In this document: one piece after another, positions 41,122-64,000 of the stretch
How the letters are laid out: every line of letters starts with the position of its first letter
How positions within the stretch are numbered: the first letter of the stretch is position 1
NCBI RefSeq assembly: GCF_051622035.1
Contig: NC_135361.1
Location: 3,663,001 to 3,727,000, forward strand
DNA: 64,000 nucleotides
Reading direction: 5' to 3'
Source of the DNA: Arctopsyche grandis
Lineage: Eukaryota > Arthropoda > Insecta > Trichoptera > Hydropsychidae
Made by a program: the position numbers and the translations under genes
The notes under the pieces: model-generated
What the model saw: only the letters and a program-made list of their open reading frames with translations
Told to the model about the DNA's origin: nothing
The model's database searches: none

Positions 41122-42395
41122 CAGTGCCGGTTTTAGGGGTAGGCTGGGTCTAGCGGCGTTCACTCATTGTATTAAATTTTATAAAACAGCATAATTTACA
41201 AGAATTGTATCCGAACATTTGGGTTACTATACAAAATTTGCTGACACTGCCTGAAACTGCACCAAATGGTGAACGTAGTTTTCCGAAAATTCTTGATTAA
41301 AAATTTATTAAAACTTATGTAGGAATCTCGTCATCGTCATCGTCATCGAAACATTCGAGAATATTCCACAACAACAAACCACATTCCTCGCAGAACTCAC
41401 CACACGTAAACAACACGTGCACTTCTTGGAATCAATCGCCAAATCCTTCGAGAATGTTCCACCCCTCACACTCGAGCGGAACGAAACCAAGACGAAGCAC
41501 ACCTGCAGCCATTATAGTAAACTCAAGCGGAACGGTGCCAAATCCAACTCAAGCGGAACGGTGCCAAATCCTTCGAGAATGTTCCACCCCTCACACTAGA
41601 GCGGAACGAAACCAGACGAAGCACACCTGCAGCCATTATATTAAACTCAAGCGGAACGCCCCTACCAGTCGAGCGGAACCAAAACGGTCGAAACACGCCG
41701 CCACCATTAAACTACATCGAGCGGAACGGCGCCAATCGTTCCAGAAAAGTCCACCCCATCGACAAAAGAACATTCCTTGCTTACGCATCAACAACCACCA
41801 CCATAGGTCAGGCGAATCCAGAAACACTATAAAAGGAGGTACAACCCAAACAACGCCAGTCGACCCACAGCAGCAAGCGTCGACACACAGCAGCAGACCA
41901 GTCGACATACAGCTCCTGACCAGCCACCACTACACTACGCGGACTTGGAAGATCAACCAGCTGGACGAGCCAGCAACACACTGCCGTATCCAGAGACCTT
42001 CCGAACATAGCCGAACGCCGAGCCAGCAACACACTGCCGCATCCAGAGACCTTCTGAACATAGCTGAATGCCGAGCCAGCGACACTCTACCATATCCAGA
42101 GACCGCTGAACGACATACTTTTGCCCAAATATAATACCTTTGTACAACCATAGACAAACAATAAAACTTTATTAAAACAAGCACAACAGTGTTTCGTTAG
42201 GCTGGGATACGGTCAACACACAGTACCCCGCCTACACTTATATCCGGTTCACAATGTCACAAAATAGACTTTCCAATTTTGAAACTCTATCTACTGGAAA
42301 TAGTATCACTGAAAATCTTGATTTTGCTGAAATAAAGGCTCGGAAAGTTCACTTCTGAACGTTCAAGGTTTCCCTTCTTGGGGCGCTTGGAAAAA
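41122..42395 (+). mobile_element. hAT transposon remnant split by a solo LTR
   Basis: It begins CAGTGCCGGTTTTAGGGG, a hAT-like terminus. Codons around 41,228-41,317 encode NLLTLPETAPNGERSF, and those after 42,237 encode YIRFTMSQNRLSNFETLS, the two halves of the hAT C-terminal dimerisation domain. It has a stop codon in the domain and little else, so it is long dead. The right terminus is not clearly preserved. Confidence 0.7.
41318..42236 (+). mobile_element. Solo LTR, fossil, probably Gypsy-type, with CTTA duplication
   Basis: Begins TGTAGG and ends CCTACA (perfect inverted ends), flanked on both sides by CTTA. It has a TATAAAAGGAGG box near 41,828, an AATAAAACTTT near 42,160, and internal tandem repeats (TCAAGCGGAACGGTGCC, GAGCCAGCAACACACTGCCG). 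No internal region, so it is the product of LTR-LTR recombination. The clean ends and duplication suggest moderate age. Confidence 0.8.
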
Positions 42396-43154
42396 CATTG
42401 AATAAATAACAGTTGAATAATTAAACACCTAGACAAAAAGTAATTTAACTTTAATAACTATAATAAATCCATATGCATATTGTCATACGTAACATAGCAA
42501 TAATCTTTGAAATAATTATATAATTTATTTATTTGTTTATTATTATAAGAAAACTTACTATAAAACTATAAACTATATCTTAATCAATGTACTTAAAAAG
42601 TACATTGATTAAGATAATAATATATTTCATTGCGCATATTAAATCAACTCCAAGTTTATAAAATCATCCACAATTCCTTTTACACGATATTTACTCAACT
42701 CGTTATATGGCAATTTTTTGGCATTACTATCATCAGCTTCACACAAGTCAATGGCTTGCAATTCAGTTCCTTTATTACTCAACACTATTGGTATCACTAT
42801 TGTTCCCATCAGTAATCCATACGGTAAAAATTCTTTCAAATGATTTTCAAAGACTGCACGTGGAAAACATTCTTCAACATCACAACCAAAATATGTCAAC
42901 TGCTTTCTAATAACTTCATAGTACATATTGAATAGTCGTGTATTGTACTTGGCCCTCATGGGTGCATCGGTGCTGCAATAAACCATATGAGATAAGTCTG
43001 TAATGGGGGAGCTAGATCTTGCAACCTGCCAATCTACAAATTTCATATCCACTGGTGTCCCATTCTGTAACAATAATTTCATAAATAAATTAATAAAAAG
43101 TGACAATTCATACATAACCATTCTCATATTATCAGAATAAAAAAATAATTAAGA

Positions 43155-44844
43155 TCTCTTCTAATCTATAATTTGGAAAGAGACTTTGTATGTATGTAAA
43201 TATCCTTGGTCGTCGTCTTCGTCGTCTTCGTCGTCGTCGTCGTCGTCCGTAGATCGGTGACGTCATCGAACACGTGATTCGATTTTTTTTTTTTTTCGAT
43301 CCATGGGCGCCGATTTTTTTTTTCGTTTCAATGGATTCACCCCCGCGGGGGCGCAAGGCGAGTAGTTTCATGGGGCCCCGCCAGGGGCGCCACAAGGGGC
43401 GCAGCCCCGTGGGGCTCAAAAGGGGGCGCCACAAGGGGCGCAGCCCCGTGGGGCCCCGAAGGGGGCCCGGGGGGCCCAGCCTCATGGGGCGCAGCCCCAT
43501 GGGGCTCAAAAGGGGGTGCCACAAGGGGCGCAGCCCCGTGAAGCCCCGAAGGGGGCGCGGGGGGCCCAGCCTCATGGGGCGCAGCCCCATGGGGCTCAAA
43601 AGGGGGCGCCACAAGGGGCGCAGCCCCGTGGGGCCCCGAAGGGGGCCCGGGGGGCCCAGCCTCATGGGGCGCAGCCCCATGGGGCTCAAAAGGGGGTGCC
43701 ACAAGGGGCGCAGCCCCGTGAAGCCCCGAAGGGGGCGCGGGGGGCCCAGCCTCATGGGGCGCAGCCCCATGGGGCTCAAAAGGGGGCGCCACAAGGGGCG
43801 CAGCCCCGTGGGGCCCCGTGGGGCCCCGAAGGGGGCCCGGGGGGCCCAGCCTCATGGGGCGCAGCCCCATGGGGCTCAAAAGGGGGCGCCACAAGGGACG
43901 CAGCCCCGTGGGGCCCCGAAGGGGGCCCGGGGGGCCCAGCCTCATGGGGCGCAGCCCCATGGGGCTCAAAAGGGGGCGCCACAAGGGGCGCAGCCCCGTG
44001 GGGCCCCGGGGGGGCCCAGCCTCATGGGGCGCAGCCCCATGGGGCTCAAAAGGGGGCGCCACAAGGGGCGCAGCCCCGTGGGGCCCCGAATGGGGGCCCG
44101 GGGGGCCCAGCCTCATGGGGCGCAGCCCCATGGGGCTCAAAAGGGGGCGCCACAAGGGGCGCAGCCCCGTGGGGCCCCGAAGGGGGCCCGGGGGGCCCAG
44201 CCTCATGGGGCGCAAGCCCTAATAGGCATTAACTAAGGGGGGCGAAGCCCTAGACGGCAATTAATCATGGGGGCGCGGAGGGGCGAAGCCCTAAAAGGCA
44301 ACTGATCATGGGGGCGAAGCCTTAGACGGCATTTAATCGTGGGGGCGCGGAGGGGCGAAGCCCTAAAAGGCATTAACTAAGGGGGGCGAAGCCCTAAACG
44401 GCAATTAATCTTGGGGGCGCGGGGGGCGAAGCCCTAAAAGGCATTAACTAGGGGGGGCGAAGCCCTAGACGGCATTTAATCATGGGGGCGCGGAGGGGCG
44501 AAGCCCTAAAAGGCAACTGATCATGGGGGCGAAGCCCTAAACGGCAATTGCTCATGGGGCGTGGAGGGGCGAAGCCCTAGAAGGCAAAGGCTCAGGGGGG
44601 TGCCGAGGGCGAAGCCCTAGAAGGCAAAAAAAAAAATTTGATTTTTTTTTTTGATTTTTTTAAATTTTTTTTTTGATTTTTTTTTTATTTTTTTTTTGAT
44701 TTTTTTTTTTATTTTTTTTTTAATTTTTTTTTTAATTTTTTTTTTAAATTTTTAAATTTTTTTTTTTTTTTAAATTAAATTAGCTTAGTCATGTTTAAGC
44801 GGTTTATATTATAAACACTGAGCGAAGCCGGGTAATACAGCTAG
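43155..44844 (+). mobile_element. Helitron H1, tandem unit 1
   Basis: Starts TCTCTTCTAATCTATAATTT after host A, and ends GAGCGAAGCCGGGTAATACAG then CTAG. Order: (GTC)n, ACGTCATCGAACACGTGATT, 90-bp GC-rich minisatellite (about 43,373-44,213), about 71-bp GGGCGAAGCCCTA minisatellite (about 44,220-44,625), T-rich tract (44,626-44,775), AATTAGCTTAGTCATGTTTA, palindrome GTTTATATTATAAAC, terminal mini-hairpin core GCGAAGC. No Rep/helicase; non-autonomous. Confidence 0.8.
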
Positions 44845-46669
44845 TCTAATCTATAATTTGGAAAGAGACTTTGTATGTATGTAAATATCCTTGGTCGTCG
44901 TCGTCGTCTTCGTCGTCGTCTTCGTCGTCCGTAGATCGGTGACGTCATCGAACACGTGATTCGATTTTTTTTTTTTTTCGATCCATGGGCGCCGATTTTT
45001 TTTTTCGTTTCAATGGATTCACCCCCGCGGGGGCGCAAGGCGAGTAGCTTCATGGGGCCCCGCCAGGGGCGCCACAAGGGGCGCAGCCCCGAAGGGGGCC
45101 CGGGGGGCGCAGCCCCGTGGGGCCCCAGCCTCATGGGGCGCAGCCCCATGGGGCTCAAAAGGGGGCGCCACAAGGGGCGCAGCCCCGTGGGGCCCCGAAG
45201 GGGGCCCGGGGGGCCCAGCCTCATGGGGCGCAGCCCCATGGGGCTCAAAAGGGGGCGCCACAAGGGGCGCAGCCCCGTGGGGGCCCGGGGGGCCTAGCCT
45301 CATGGGGCGCAGCCCCATGGGGCTCAAAAGGGGGCGCCACAAGGGGCGCAGCCCCGTGAAGCCCCGAAGGGGGCGCGGGGGGCCCAGCCTCATGGGGCGC
45401 AGCCCCATGGGGCTCAAAAGGGGGCGCCACAAGGGGCGCAGCCCCGTGGGGCCCCGAAGGGGGCCCGGGGGGCCCAGCCTCATGGGGCGCAAGCCCTAAT
45501 AGGCATTAACTAAGGGGGGCGAAGCCCTAAACGGCAATTAATCTTGGGGGCGCGGGGGGCGAAGCCCTAAAAGGCAACTGATCATGGGGGCGAAGCCTTA
45601 GACGGCATTTAATCATGGGGGCGCGGAGGGGCGAAGCCCTAAAAGGCATTAACTAAGGGGGGCGAAGCCCTAAACGGCAATTAATCTTGGGGGCGCGGGG
45701 GGCGAAGCCCTAAAAGGCAACTGATCATGGGTGCGAAGCCTTAGACGGCATTTAATCATGGGGGCGCGGAGGGGCGAAGCCCTAAAAGGCATTAACTAAG
45801 GGGGGCGAAGCCCTAAACGGCAATTAATCTTGGGGGCGCGGGGGGCGAAGCCCTTATCGGCAACTGATCATGGGGGCGAAGCCCTAGACGGCATTTAATC
45901 ATGGGGGCGCGGAGGGGCGAAGCCCTAAAAGGCATTAACTAAGGGGGGCGAAGCCCTAAACGGCAATTAATCTTGGGGGCGCGGGGGGCGAAGCCCTAAA
46001 AGGCATTAACTAAGGGGGGCGAAGCCCTAAACGGCAATTAATCTTGGGGGCGCGGGGGGCGAAGCCCTTATCGGCAACTGATCATGGGGGCGAAGCCCTA
46101 GACGGCATTTAATCATGGGGGCGCGGAGGGGCGAAGCCCTAAAAGGCATTAACTAAGGGGGGCGAAGCCCTAAACGGCAATTAACCTTTGGGGCGCGGGG
46201 GGCGAAGCCCTAAAAGGCATTAACTTAGGGGGGCGAAGCCCTAGACGGCTTTTAATCATGGGGGCGCGGAGGGGCGAAGCCCTAAAAGGCAACTGATCAT
46301 GGGGGCGAAGCCCTAAACGGCAATTGCTCATGGGGCGTGGAGGGGCGAAGCCCTAGAAGGCAAAGGCTCAGGGGGGCGCCGAGGGCGAAGCCCTAGAAGG
46401 CAAAAAAAAAATTAGATTTTTTTTTTTTGATTTTTTAAAAAATTTTTTTTTAATTTTTTTTTTATTTTTTTTTTATTTTTTTTTTAATTTTTTTTTTTTG
46501 ATTTTTTTTTAATTTTTTTTTTTTGATTTTTTTTTTATTTTTTTTTTTTATTTTTTTTTTTAATTTTTAAATTTTTTTTTAATTTTTTTTTTTTTTTAAT
46601 TAAATTAGCTTAGTCATGTTTAAGCGGTTTATATTATAAACACTGAGCGAAGCCGGGTAATACAGCTAG
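44845..46669 (+). mobile_element. Helitron H1, tandem unit 2
   Basis: Begins TCTAATCTATAATTTGG immediately after the CTAG of unit 1 with no spacer, and ends in CTAG. The 90-bp array is short (about 45,052-45,492), while the 71-bp array is the longest of the four (about 45,495-46,400), showing independent change in copy number. Confidence 0.8.
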
Positions 46670-48755
46670 TCTAATCTATAATTTGGAAAGAGACTTTGTA
46701 TGTAAATATCCTTGGTCGTCGTCGTCGTCGTCTTCGTCGTCTTCGTCGTCGTCCGTAGATCGGTGACGTCATCGAACACGTGATTCGATTTTTTTTTTTT
46801 TCGATCCATGGGCGCCGATTTGTTTTTTTCGATTCAATGGATTCACCCCCGCGGGGGCGCAAAGCGAGTAGTTTCATGGGGCCCCGCCAGGGGCGCCACA
46901 AGGGGCGCAGCCCCGTGGGGCCCCGAAGGGGGCCCGGGGGGCCCAGCCTCATGGGGCGCAGCCCCATGGGGCTCAAAAGGGGGTGCCACAAGGGGCGCAG
47001 CCCCATGGGGCTCAAAAGGGGGCGCCACAAGGGGCGCAGCCCCGTGGGGCCCCGAAGGGGGCCCGGGGGGCCCAGCCTCATGGGGCGCAGCCCCATGAGG
47101 CTCAAAAGGGGGCGCCACAAGGGGCGCAGCCCCGTGGGGCCCAGCCTCATGGGGCGCAGCCCCATGGGGCTCAAAAGGGGGCGCCACAAGGGGCGCAGCC
47201 CCGTGGGGCCCCGAAGGGGGCCCGGGGGGCCCAGCCTCATGGGGCGCAGCCCCATGGGGCTCAAAAGGGGGTGCCACAAGGGGCGCAGCCCCGTGAAGCC
47301 CCGAAGGGGGCGCGGGGGGCCCAGCCTCATGGGGCGCAGCCCCATGGGGCTCAAAAGGGGGCGCCACAAGGGGCGCAGCCCCGTGGGGCCCCGAAGGGGG
47401 CCCGGGGGGCCCAGCCTCATGGGGCGCAGCCCCATGGGGCTCAAAAGGGGGTGCCACAAGGGGCGCAGCCCCGTGAAGCCCCGAAGGGGGCCCGGGGGGC
47501 CCAGCCTCATGGGGCGCAGCCCCATGGGGCTCAAAAGGGGGCGCCACAAGGGGCGCAGCCCCGTGGGGCCCCGAAGGGGGCCCGGGGGGCCCAGCCTCAT
47601 GGGGCGCAGCCCCATGGGGCTCAAAAGGGGGCGCCACAAGGGGCGCAGCCCCGTGGGGCCCCGAAGGGGGCCCGGGGGGCCCAGCCTCATGGGGCGCAAG
47701 CCCTAATAGGCATTAACTAAGGGGGGCGAAGCCCTAGACGGCAATTAATCATGGGGGCGCGGAGGGGCGAAGCCCTAAAAGGCAACTGATCATGGGGGCG
47801 AAGCCTTAGACGGCATTTAATCATGGGGGCGCGGAGGGGCGAAGCCCTAAAAGGCATTAACTAAGGGGGGCGAAGCCCTAAACGGCAATTAATCTTGGGG
47901 GCGCGGGGGGCGAAGCCCTAAAAGGCAACTGATCATGGGGGCGAAGCCTTAGACGGCATTTAATCATGGGGGCGCGGAGGGGCGAAGCCCTAAAAGGCAT
48001 TAACTAAGGGGGGCGAAGCCCTAAACGGCAATTAATCTTGGGGGCGCGGGGGGCGAAGCCCTAAAAGGCAACTGATCATGGGGGCGAAGCCTTAGACGGC
48101 ATTTAATCATGGGGGCGCGGAGGGGCGAAGCCCTAAAAGGCATTAACTAAGGGGGGCGAAGCCCTAAACGGCAATTAATCTTGGGGGCGTGGGGGGCGAA
48201 GCCCTAAAAGGCAACTGATCATGGGAGCGAAGCCTTAGACGGCATTTAATCATGGGGGCGCGGAGGGGCGAAGCCCTAAAAGGCATTAACTAAGGGGGGC
48301 GAAGCCCTAAACGGCAATTAATCTTGGGGGCGCGGGGGGCGAAGCCCTAAAAGGCATTAACTAAGGGGGGCGAAGCCCTAGACGGCATTTAATCATGGGG
48401 GTGCGGAGGGGCGAAGCCCTAAAAGGCATTAACTAAGGGGGGCGAAGCCCTAAACGGCAATTGCTCATGGGGCGTGGAGGGGCGAAGCCCTAGAAGGCAA
48501 AGGCTCAGGGGGGTGCCGAGGGCGAAGCCCTAGAAGGCAAAAAAAAAAATTTGATTTTTTTTTTGATTTTTTTAAATTTTTTTTTTGATTTTTTTTTTAT
48601 TTTTTTTTTTGATTTTTTTTTTATTTTTTTTTAATTTTTTTTTTAATTTTTTTTTTAAATTTTAAATTTTTTTTTTTTTTTTTAATTAAATTAGCTTAGT
48701 CATGTTTAAGCGGTTTATATTATAAACACTGAGCGAAGCCGGGTAATACAGCTAG
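46670..48755 (+). mobile_element. Helitron H1, tandem unit 3
   Basis: Begins TCTAATCTATAATTTGG directly after unit 2. 90-bp array about 46,873-47,695, 71-bp array about 47,700-48,535, T-rich tract about 48,538-48,690, same terminal segment ending CTAG. Longest unit at about 2.09 kb. Confidence 0.8.
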
Positions 48756-50234
48756 TAATCTATAATTTGGAAAGAGACTTTGTATGTATCCTTGGTCGTC
48801 GTTTTCGTCGTTTTCGTCGTCGTCGTCGTCGTCCGTAGATCGGTGACGTCATCGAACACGTGATTCGATTTTTTTTTTTTCGATCCATGGGCGCCGATTT
48901 GTTTTTTTCGTTTCAATGGATTCACCCCCGCGGGGGCGCAAGGCGAGTAGCTTCATGGGGCCCCGCCAGGGGCGCCACAAGGGGCGCAGCCCCGTGGGGC
49001 CCCAGCCTCATGGGGCGCAGCCCCATGGGGCTCAAAAGGGGGCGCCACAAGGGGCGCAGCCCCGTGGGGCCCCGTGGGGCCCCGAAGGGGGCCCGGGGGG
49101 CCCAGCCTCATGGGGCGCAGCCCCATGGGGCTCAAAAGGGGGCGCCACAAGGGACGCAGCCCCGTGGGGCCCCGAAGGGGGCCCGGGGGGCCCAGCCTCA
49201 TGGGGCGCAGCCCCATGGGGCTCAAAAGGGGGCGCCACAAGGGGCGCAGCCCCGTGGGGCCCCAGGGGGGCCCAGCCTCATGGGGCGCAGCCCCATGGGG
49301 CTCAAAAGGGGGCGCCACATGGGGCTCAAAAGGGGGCGCCACAAGGGGCGCAGCCCCGGGGGGCCCAGCCTCATGGGGCGCAGCCCCATGGGGCTCAAAA
49401 GGGGGCGCCACAAGGGGCGCAGCCCCGTGGGGCCCCGAAGGGGGCCCGGGGGGCCCAGCCTCATGGGGCGCAAGCCCTAATAGGCATTAACTAAGGGGGG
49501 CGAAGCCCTAGACGGCAATTAATCATGGGGGCGCGGAGGGGCGAAGCCCTAAAAGGCAACTGATCATGGGGGCGAAGCCTTAGACGGCATTTAATCATGG
49601 GGGCGCGGAGGGGCGAAGCCCTAAAAGGCATTAACTAAGGGGGGCGAAGCCCTAAACGGCAATTAATCTTGGGGGCGCGGGGGGCGAAGCCCTAAAAGGC
49701 ATTAACTAGGGGGGGCGAAGCCCTAGACGGCATTTAATCATGGGGGTGCGGAGGGGCGAAGCCCTAAAAGGCATTAACTAAGGGGGGCGAAGCCCGAAAC
49801 GGCAATTAATCTTGGGGGCGCGGGGGGCGAAGCCCTAAAAGGCATTAACTAAGGGGGGCGAAGCCCTAGACGGCTTTGAATCATGGGGGCGCGGAGGGGC
49901 GAAGCCCTAAAAGGCAACTGATCATGGGGGCGAAGCCCTAAACGGCAATTGCTCATGGGGCGTGGAGGGGCGAAGCCCTAGAAGGCAAAGGCTCAGGGGG
50001 GTGCCGAGGGCGAAGCCCTAGAAGGCAAAAAAAAAAATTTGATTTTTTTTTTTTTGATTTTTTTAAATTTTTTTTTTGATTTTTTTTTTATTTTTTTTTT
50101 GATTTTTTTTTTTATTTTTTTTTTATTTTTTTTTTAAATTTTTAAATTTTTTTTTTTTTTTTAATTAAATTAGCTTAGTCATGTTTAAGCGGTTTATATT
50201 ATAAACACTGAGCGAAGCCGGGTAATACAGCTAG
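48756..50234 (+). mobile_element. Helitron H1, tandem unit 4
   Basis: Begins TAATCTATAATTTGG directly after the CTAG of unit 3, two bases short of the other internal joins. 90-bp array about 48,957-49,468, 71-bp array about 49,475-50,025, T-rich tract, and terminal CTAG at 50,234 followed by host T and kinase exon 1 sequence. Confidence 0.8.
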
Positions 50235-51002
50235 TACCCTATATTTGAACAAAATATTATTATTCCAACAGTCTCCATGACAAATTACATCATAAGGTGC
50301 GGCACTCTCTGAAGCAATGTATTTGTAAAAATTTTCCACACCATTCTCTGAAATGAAAGCAGTTTTTTTGCTTTGTATGCATCATCTATAATCGCAGTTG
50401 CTTGAAGAAGAGATCGCTTTATTAACGGATTCAAAATATCTAAATTGACCGCTTCATCCGCCAGTTTTGCCAAATTCTTATACATTGCCGGATTGAGTTT
50501 TTTCATTGCAAACGAAAGTGAATGATATCGAGCTAGACTGAACAACACCAACTCTAAATGATCAGAATCAAATGAATTGTAACGGTTGTAAATCTGATAT
50601 CCTTTTGCGCTCATGTCTTCCATCAAAATTACATTGGTGTTTGCTATATAGCATTTGACAAAGTCAAATCGTTCTTCAATCGGTATCTTATGTTCGTCTT
50701 GAAATGATTTAAATGTGGGTAAGATTATGTTGTAAAGATCAGCCTCTCTATTATACAAGTTTTCCACTTTCAATGTTTCAGATATGGCTTTATCTGAAGT
50801 CGTTTTCGCAATTAAATTAAACAAGACACTTTTATTGTGTTTAGATGTTATTTCAATTTTATGCATTTCACCGACATAATTGTCGCCTTTTTCTGATCCA
50901 GGGCTTATGCGTAGAGCTACGTCCTTCAAACCATTTTTTTGTATGAACTCTTCAATTGCAACCTTGCAGCTTTCAGGCAAAGTCAATGTATCGCACATAT
51001 TG

Positions 51003-52620
51003 ATCGACTTCGATTATGGCAGTTGTACGTAGCGATTATGAATGTAGAGTACTAAAATTGTACTTGGCACATGGGTACATTTTATATTCTTTAGGCAGGA
51101 GTTTTGAACAAATTATAAAAAATAGTAAATAATTAAGAAGATAATAAAATTAGTATACACAACCTCATGATTCTATTTACATATATTATAGTACCTCATC
51201 CGCTGAGAGAGAATAATCAAACCAATCTCCTAAATTTGTCAAATTTATTAATGATAACTTTATGATTGATAACTAACACTTATTTTCATTTTTTAACTAC
51301 GTGGTTGACCACAGACCAACGTTAAAGTACCATTGCCATACGGAAAACTTAATTTAAATAACTATGGATCGCATTTACTGATTATGTAAGAGTACAAAGA
51401 TCATTTGAGACCAAAATCACTATAATTCACAAAATTGTGGAGATTCATAATTCTGAAAATCAAGAGCATATTATACACACGGCCAATGAGAGGGGGGGGA
51501 GCGGGGGTAAAGTTCCAGAACCCGGAATACTCGAGAAGCCCCGTGTCGGAGATCATACCTGTTATATCATATTTTCTTATTAAATTATTTTAAAAAATAA
51601 TAACCAATATATATATTTTTAATAGTTCTAATAGATTTTTCGCATATTAAAAATATATTTGTATAAGATCTTTTTTTAGGTAGTCATAGGACCCGAAATT
51701 AATTTTCTCCAGGGCCCGGGATTTCTCTCAGCAGCCCTGCTATTTTTTAATTTTAATATTAACCGCATAATATGTAGGTTATCTATCCAAATATTACATC
51801 ACATAGTGAAAAATAATCACACTAAAATTTCTATTGACCTAGTCTGTATTAATAAAATAGGTATTTGATAGCTTATATAACATATCATGTAAGTGTAAAT
51901 CGCCAATAAATATGAAAAGGTCAAATAATTCAAATCACTTACCACATCAGCAATGGCCAGCTGAAGCTGAGCACATAATATATAATGTCACAGTGAAATT
52001 ATATTTTGCTTTATATTAGTTTATCCGCTCGAAAATATTGTTTTTTAAACGGATTTTTGAGAAGAAGTTGTGTTTCAACCATTGGTTTCAACCATTGTGT
52101 TTCAACCATTTGCATATTCAATTAATAATCATTATCATATTAAAATGATAATCATTATTATTTCAACATATTCACTTAATAATCAAAAATCGATGGAACA
52201 GCATGCTTTTCATGTTGCAGCGATTTTTTGAAGTTAAAAACTATATTTTAAAGTCATTGATTGATGTGATTTCATTCGTTTCATTTGAAGAGAAAGAATT
52301 TGAATTGATTCATGATTTGGTGAAAAGAAATATTTTAAATATATTTGTATATATGTACGTGTATTTTTTTAAATGAATACAAAAATATTCAATTAAAAAA
52401 AAAAAATTCTTATACATTTAATCTCGGGTTCGGAAATTTCCAACATCGCAATCCGGGTGCTGAAAAAACCTTCCGGGATTGGATGCCCTAATACCTATGT
52501 ATATATGTATAATATATATGTATGTATATATCTGTATTTGTACTGATATTTGAAAATCAACAATAAGTACATATAAACACATATAACTTGAAACATATAT
52601 GTATGTATGTTTATACAAAA
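51003..52620. other. Upstream flank of gene 9, duplicated and non-coding
   Basis: 51,003-51,480 and 51,755-51,990 match the upstream flanks of genes 6 and 7 (for example CTTAATTTAAATAACTATGG and GGATCGCATTTACTGATTAT). The GC-rich interval 51,479-51,749 interrupts this. No gene. Confidence 0.6.
51479..51749 (-). mobile_element. Possible non-autonomous DNA element
   Basis: Read on the - strand it starts CAGGGCTGCTGAGAG, and the opposite end CACGGCCAATGAGAG is a loose inverted match. It interrupts a duplicated flank and differs in base composition. Target duplication not resolved; class uncertain. Confidence 0.35.

Positions 52621-61603: not shown

Positions 61604-64000
<2,397 letters not shown>

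Follow-up and report, generated by a model that had tools for sequence, protein, structure and literature searches.

The window analysed here is a 64,000-nucleotide (nt) stretch of the Arctopsyche grandis genome (C7:3663001-3727000), which contains, at 43155-50234 of the + strand (C7:3706155-3713234), four non-autonomous Helitron units of 1690, 1825, 2086 and 1479 base pairs (bp), arranged head to tail with no spacer between them. Unit 1 (43155..44844) follows host base A43154 and starts with a longer 5' variant, TCTCTTCTAATC; unit 2 (44845..46669) and unit 3 (46670..48755) are each linked to the preceding unit by a precise joint CTAG|TCTAATC, and unit 4 (48756..50234), which is followed by host base T50235, by a joint CTAG|TAATC that lacks TC and is two bases shorter than joints 1/2 and 2/3. 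A preliminary description of the stretch had proposed four spacerless head-to-tail Helitrons; unit boundaries and joints bear this out, with joint 3/4 two bases short.

Each unit consists of a head of about 200 nt with a GTC microsatellite (43209..43247 in unit 1; 44894-44929, 46715-46753 and 48795-48833 in units 2 to 4), a 90-bp array (43366..44210 in unit 1, with 17 GCGCAGC cores; 45048-45487, 46872-47694 and 48951-49468, with 10, 18 and 10 cores), a 71/143-bp array (44211..44625 in unit 1, with 11 GCGAAGC cores; 45488-46401, 47695-48538 and 49469-50026, with 25, 23 and 15 cores), a T-rich tract (44626..44776 in unit 1; 46402-46601, 48539-48687 and 50027-50166) and a 68-nt 3' tail (44777..44844 in unit 1; 46602-46669, 48688-48755 and 50167-50234), all on the + strand, the tail ending in GCGAAGC, 12 nt and CTAG. 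The tails of the four units do not differ at all and their heads show 1-6 substitutions per pair across 191-203 sites, so the window copies are probably young. The units look mosaic, with variant blocks common to units 1 and 4 and to units 1 and 3.

The row lies in an intron of an EcKinase-like gene (42639..51013, - strand; PF02958), matched by eye to the NCBI model LOC143914727 (P0010), which unites sequence from either side of the row; the first exon of the gene, also judged by eye, carries a 1-nt deletion relative to its paralogues. Of the three paralogous introns aligned, two have the sequence TAAGATACC, which corresponds to an empty site TAAGA^TACC without duplication, and the third is one base off. 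The occupied site reads TAAGA|TC...CTAG|TACCC, the focal intron having four additional bases just beyond. The paralogous introns thus indicate that the row occupies an A^T target and that no target duplication was made. They belong to a cluster of EcKinase-like exons on both strands of the window (2356-51013), several of them near-identical, with PF02958 found for the one searched; an EcKinase-like protein from the window matches LOC143914321 with 100% identity across 95% of its length as query.

Family ends were sampled at loci numbered L. In the sample of 56 5' ends, TCTAATC is preceded by A in 37 cases, by G in 12 and by T in six, and one end lacks TCT. All 12 G-preceded ends have CTAG directly before them, the six T-preceded ends were read by eye as longer variants, and two of the 37 A-preceded ends (L085, L087) come after a tail lacking its final G. 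Sampled 3' ends read CTAG|T in 49 of 52 cases and CTA|TC in the other three, and all four window units terminate in CTAG. TCTAATC after A is hence the standard 5' end of the family among sampled copies, unit 1 of the window having a longer variant; the idea that units 2-4 have lost part of their 5' end was dropped, since other copies have TCTAATC as standard. Imprecise joints and 5'-extended ends occur at L080, L085, L087, L106 and window position 48756, in the forms CTA|TC (with G lost), CTAG|TAATC, and TCTA or TCT runs before TCTAATC.

A canonical Helitron 3' hairpin comprises 16-20 nt and lies about 11 nt from the end. In all four window units GCGAAGC stands exactly 12 nt ahead of CTAG, as the preliminary description had stated; the folding program returns a weak terminal hairpin there (2 bp, -0.5 kcal/mol) with a pairing other than GC-GAA-GC, and the GC-GAA-GC mini-hairpin is a by-eye reading that differs from it. 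By their TC start, CTAG end and A^T target without duplication, the window units are canonical (Helitron1-type) non-autonomous Helitrons. Membership among Helentrons or their derivatives (HINEs) was rejected, as the target is A^T instead of TT or a T-run, and as subterminal inverted repeats were not found in unit 1, where the first 120 and last 70 nt hold no exact inverted match of at least 7 nt.

The Helitron transposase domain RepHel (PF14214) has 16 matches genome-wide, all genome-wide counts referring to the 475.7-Mb assembly, and none within the window. Neither end of the family was found at 12 RepHel loci of about 3.3 kb, stretches that do not reach the ends of the elements concerned, nor in the gene's orientation in the 10 kb of L107. 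A full-length RepHel partner would be recognised by TCTAATCTATAATTTGG and GGGTAATACAGCTAG. On the - strand of G000:C3:20710636-20738225, PF14214 matches four times at an exact spacing of 9,032 bp, a recent tandem duplication that includes pieces of Helitron transposase.

Genome-wide, exact 5' ends of the family number 999, exact 3' ends 1,594 and exact CTAG|TCTAATC joints 165 (control 0 for each), counts which as exact matches are lower bounds biased to young copies. Insertion at random A^T sites would yield about 0.005 joints in the genome; random choice among such sites was rejected on this ground, and if new copies insert at the 5' edge of a resident copy, that edge must be strongly preferred. 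The 100 5' ends that head the listing all lie on C1 and form 72 groups, 17 of which are clusters of 2-5 copies; of the 68 exact 5' ends within the initial 19.5 Mb of C1, 11 directly follow an exact 3' end. The family and its tandem arrangement, which the preliminary description had proposed to seek elsewhere in the genome, are therefore both present well beyond the window. So are related Helitrons with little or no array, which it had likewise proposed to look for: the copy in L079, of about 545 bp, is array-poor, its 15-bp array with GCGCAGC running to 11.3 units, and short relatives that show no array in the part seen lie downstream in L077 and at L069/L108 and L115.

To compare units, 51 fetched copies and the four window units were used, the fetched ones coming from 40 of the 72 groups on C1, chosen by exact 5' ends. 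A unit was required to have its own 3' end and at least five GGGCGAAGCCC cores; this excluded the array-poor L079 copy and the truncated L078 and L080 copies, and copies that extend past the fetched stretch were not used either. Mean 25-mer containment was 0.570 for adjacent pairs (n=16) and 0.549 between clusters, with 1450 of 5000 shuffles as high, and 0.566 for the nine adjacent pairs listed as precisely joined. The closest relative was a cluster mate for only two of 27 tandem units, both from the pair L081_3/L081_4. Window units 1-4 are less close to their own neighbours than to copies on C1, the sole other contig sampled, where their closest relatives are L072, L093, L101 and L083, respectively. 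They share up to 31 rare 31-mers with unlinked loci, and at most one with each other.

Joints were also found between different types of Helitron. In 12 joints genome-wide, CTAG is preceded by a base that is not G, six reading ACTAG and six TCTAG. All six ACTAG joints continue the 3' ends of other Helitron types: three of a type here called H2 (L096/L109, L117, L118), one of an H2-like type (L113) and two of a short relative of the focal family (L069/L108, L115). The six TCTAG joints read A|TCTAG|TCTAATC, a 5' extension without explanation, and in L068, which reads GCTAG, the upstream sequence was not recognised and is assigned neither to the family nor to another type. The terminal hairpin of H2, ACCCGTTGA-AA-TCAACGGGT, is a perfect one of 9 bp and stands 6 nt before CTAG. 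H2 is called a Helitron because of this hairpin and the CTAG end, and because its copies agree up to CTAG and differ beyond it (L080 compared with L109, L117 and L118); no 5' end of H2 was found. H2 further contains a 68-bp minisatellite with GGGGGCGAAGCCCCC-like cores, GCGNAGC occurring five times on the + strand and not on the - strand in L109, and five times in the same sense in L080.

On this evidence we consider it probable, at about 0.6, that the row arose through separate transposition events, in which every new copy landed at the A|TC edge of a resident copy. The point of insertion would be precisely the step from the host A to the resident's first T (A|TC...), itself an A^T target; the product, A|TC...CTAG|TC...CTAG|T, would be spacerless and would regenerate the same target at its new 5' edge. 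The resident 5' edge may draw insertion, for instance if transposase binds and nicks there, and the array would grow on its 5' side. What favours serial insertion is that the joints are precise and use the ordinary A^T target, that neighbours are unlike, and that joints connect different types. Several points weigh against it. Some joints are imprecise (window joint 3/4, CTA|TC in 3 of 52 sampled 3' ends, the 5'-extended ends), and precise joints are listed for 9 of the 16 adjacent pairs only. On C2, two joint pairs have one and the same spacing of 2,133 bp, so that some joints may be copies of a single event. The pair L081_3/L081_4, one of 23, accounts for 227 of the 228 rare 31-mers common to cluster mates (the remaining pairs share one in all), and owing to it no more than 27 of 2000 label shuffles reach the cluster-mate share of 228 in 1424 rare 31-mers; duplication or concatemers thus also occur. 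Growth on the 5' side is an inferred direction, and fast-changing minisatellites could blur a common origin, against which stands a median best match of 0.81 among all compared units. Finally, circles that enter by homology could likewise produce precise joints between unlike units.

In this latter scenario, which we regard as unlikely, circles of unrelated copies, each bearing a precise CTAG|TC joint, recombined homologously into a resident copy. Joints would then be precise and units unlike, Helraiser is documented to form circles (PMC4778049), and the mosaic look of the units fits it; joints between H2 and the focal family are not readily made in this way, their 3' ends being unlike. The preliminary description had thought of tandem read-through products, that is, of a single event in which a circle was copied several times and inserted as a concatemer, a reading also usual in print. 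For this speak the precise CTAG|TC joints of the Helraiser circles (PMC4778049, in part), the use of tandem arrays in print as support for rolling circles (PMC5876387, in part), the likeness of L081_3/L081_4 to a recent duplicate, and the identical tails of the four window units. As neighbours in the sample are as a rule not close relatives, L081_3/L081_4 being exceptional among 23 pairs, as the window units share more rare words with unlinked loci than mutually, and as joints connect different types, a concatemer fails to explain unlike neighbours and cross-type joints and is not supported as the general rule; we consider it improbable. Insertion directly behind the 3' end of a resident (CTAG^T), and not ahead of the 5' end, would give the same products, cross-type joints included, but needs a G^T target, whereas the 12 of 12 G-preceded 5' ends with CTAG and the 37 of 56 ends preceded by A are explained by insertion at the 5' edge with the ordinary A^T target; we hold it to be very improbable.

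The minisatellites of the units are built on GCGNAGC cores, as the preliminary description had claimed. GNA loops generally behave as exceptionally stable hairpins. Such mini-hairpins are described as extraordinarily stable in PMC10527192, where the melting temperature (Tm) of CGCGAAGCG is 88.5 and that of a 2-bp hairpin 76.5. Tandem Repeats Finder (TRF) returned the 90-bp array and an array of about 71/72 bp with a higher-order period of 143 bp; 43155-50234 holds 55 GCGCAGC and 78 GCGAAGC cores (four of the latter terminal), altogether 133 on the + and 0 on the - strand, so that 129 internal cores are all on the + strand. We take the 2-bp hairpin with Tm 76.5 to be GCGAAGC. When three monomers were shuffled 2000 times each, at least two GCGNAGC cores arose in 0, 2 and 1 trials, respectively, and genome-wide GGGCGAAGCCC occurs 25,477 times, compared with 22 for its backwards control.

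It had further been suggested that the terminal hairpin was amplified internally. At most mild support comes from shuffles of two array-2 monomers, which hold GCGAAGC in 33 and 53 of 2000 cases; array 2 and the tail have the 8-nt word GCGAAGCC in common, 109 and 167 of 2000 shuffles (5-8%) share an equally long word with the tail, and the suggestion is unproven. It cannot explain the H2 array, since the terminal hairpin of H2 is different: the GCGNAGC core recurs in H2 without being its terminal hairpin. The idea that internal hairpins could act as false terminators is not supported. CTGA follows at exactly 12 nt in 13 of the 78 GCGAAGC cores and CTAA or CTAG at 15 nt in 17, a core-to-CTRR-like spacing matched by about 9-10% of mononucleotide shuffles. 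Moreover, apart from two of the 56 copies, which extend past the fetched stretch, all 54 are informative and not one ends at an internal hairpin: 52 possess a 3' end of their own and two are truncated elsewhere, L078 within the first array and L080 within the T-rich tract.

To look for selection on the cores, variant events were counted: they fell in the core in 0 of 20 cases in array 2 (P 0.012) and 2 of 11 in array 1 (P 0.51), by a crude count that for array 1 includes 26 GCCCAGC sites. Length variants of array 1 lie mostly in its G/C-run part, judged by eye, and the 15-bp palindrome of the L079 copy is found again within the 90-bp unit; slippage on stable palindromes is therefore the simplest source, and the minisatellites are most likely separate internal expansions of stable GNA mini-hairpins, grown by slippage. 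In viral collections, three exact patterns matched 0 viral contigs; a looser pattern matched 44, and one pattern matched two prokaryote contigs, about the level of chance by hand reckoning. A protein search with one frame of the array gave no match at E 0.001.

Elsewhere in the window, the regions 1120-1850 and 41320-42210 are related (85% over 391 bp), contain TATAAAAGG and a 53-bp minisatellite, and by eye look like the long terminal repeats of one retroelement. At 62312-64000 lies a coding repeat with a 228-bp period, presumably polyubiquitin-like.

Known systems share parts of this architecture, as far as the available portions of the respective papers go. The non-autonomous DHH_Mothra family of rice (1,682 elements, sub-types of 1252-2741 bp) resembles the focal units in its TC/CTAG ends and two internal tandem-repeat blocks of variable length and has a 3' hairpin, but one of its blocks has about 20% GC, and that portion describes neither mini-hairpin arrays nor end-to-end rows (PMC4683698). 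Like the focal units, Hel-2/BmHel-2 of Lepidoptera are non-autonomous insect elements with TC, CTAG, A/T flanks and a microsatellite near the 5' end; they have a 3' hairpin, but a 250-bp consensus, and the portion available mentions no GC-rich minisatellite (PMC4344730). The oyster Helentron derivatives Cg_HINE have a GTC-type microsatellite in the 5' module and, like DINE-1, a central tandem array and a short 3' module with a palindrome; both differ in having subterminal inverted repeats and in their targets, which are TT or T-rich, whereas the focal family has TC/CTAG, A^T and whole 3' ends (PMC7492417, PMC4067079). Helraiser circles have precise CTAG-to-TC joints, like those of the focal family, and a hairpin as terminator, but Helraiser is a reconstructed bat element with a 19-bp palindrome, for which no internal arrays are described there (PMC4778049, PMC5876387).

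That Helitrons can repeat in tandem is stated in the oyster paper (PMC7492417), and tandem Helitrons are reported from bat, Drosophila, rice, maize and plant centromeres (PMC5148889, PMC5876387). A Fusarium copy is inserted 2 bp upstream of another, and for three in tandem in Metarhizium acridum, repeated 5'-end insertion or rolling-circle replication was left open (PMC5148889). Like the focal row, published tandems lie side by side or head to tail, some near another's 5' end; they are cited for rolling circles, whereas in A. grandis the unlikeness of units was measured and cross-type joints were seen (PMC5148889, PMC5876387, in the portions available). Tandem and repeat-bearing Helitrons are thus known, and independent end-to-end joining across types is the newer part, though, no literature search having been aimed at such joints, we do not claim its absence from the literature. 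Nor do we claim this for mini-hairpin arrays in Helitrons, of which the titles and abstract openings returned by general literature searches, none dedicated to the subject, showed no instance.

Taken together, the resident 5' edge may be a self-renewing, strongly preferred landing site, used by other types too, at which rows of unlike Helitrons grow copy by copy, while two types with unlike 3' ends may have independently gained + strand arrays of the same GNA mini-hairpin; we regard the odds of this combined picture as evenly poised. If it is true, the question of where Helitrons prefer to land receives a sharp, testable answer, and if most rows are serial insertions at Helitron edges, the inference of rolling-circle concatemers from tandem copies needs care. 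One mini-hairpin core in two Helitron types also lets one ask whether structured single-stranded DNA helps these elements or merely accumulates in them.

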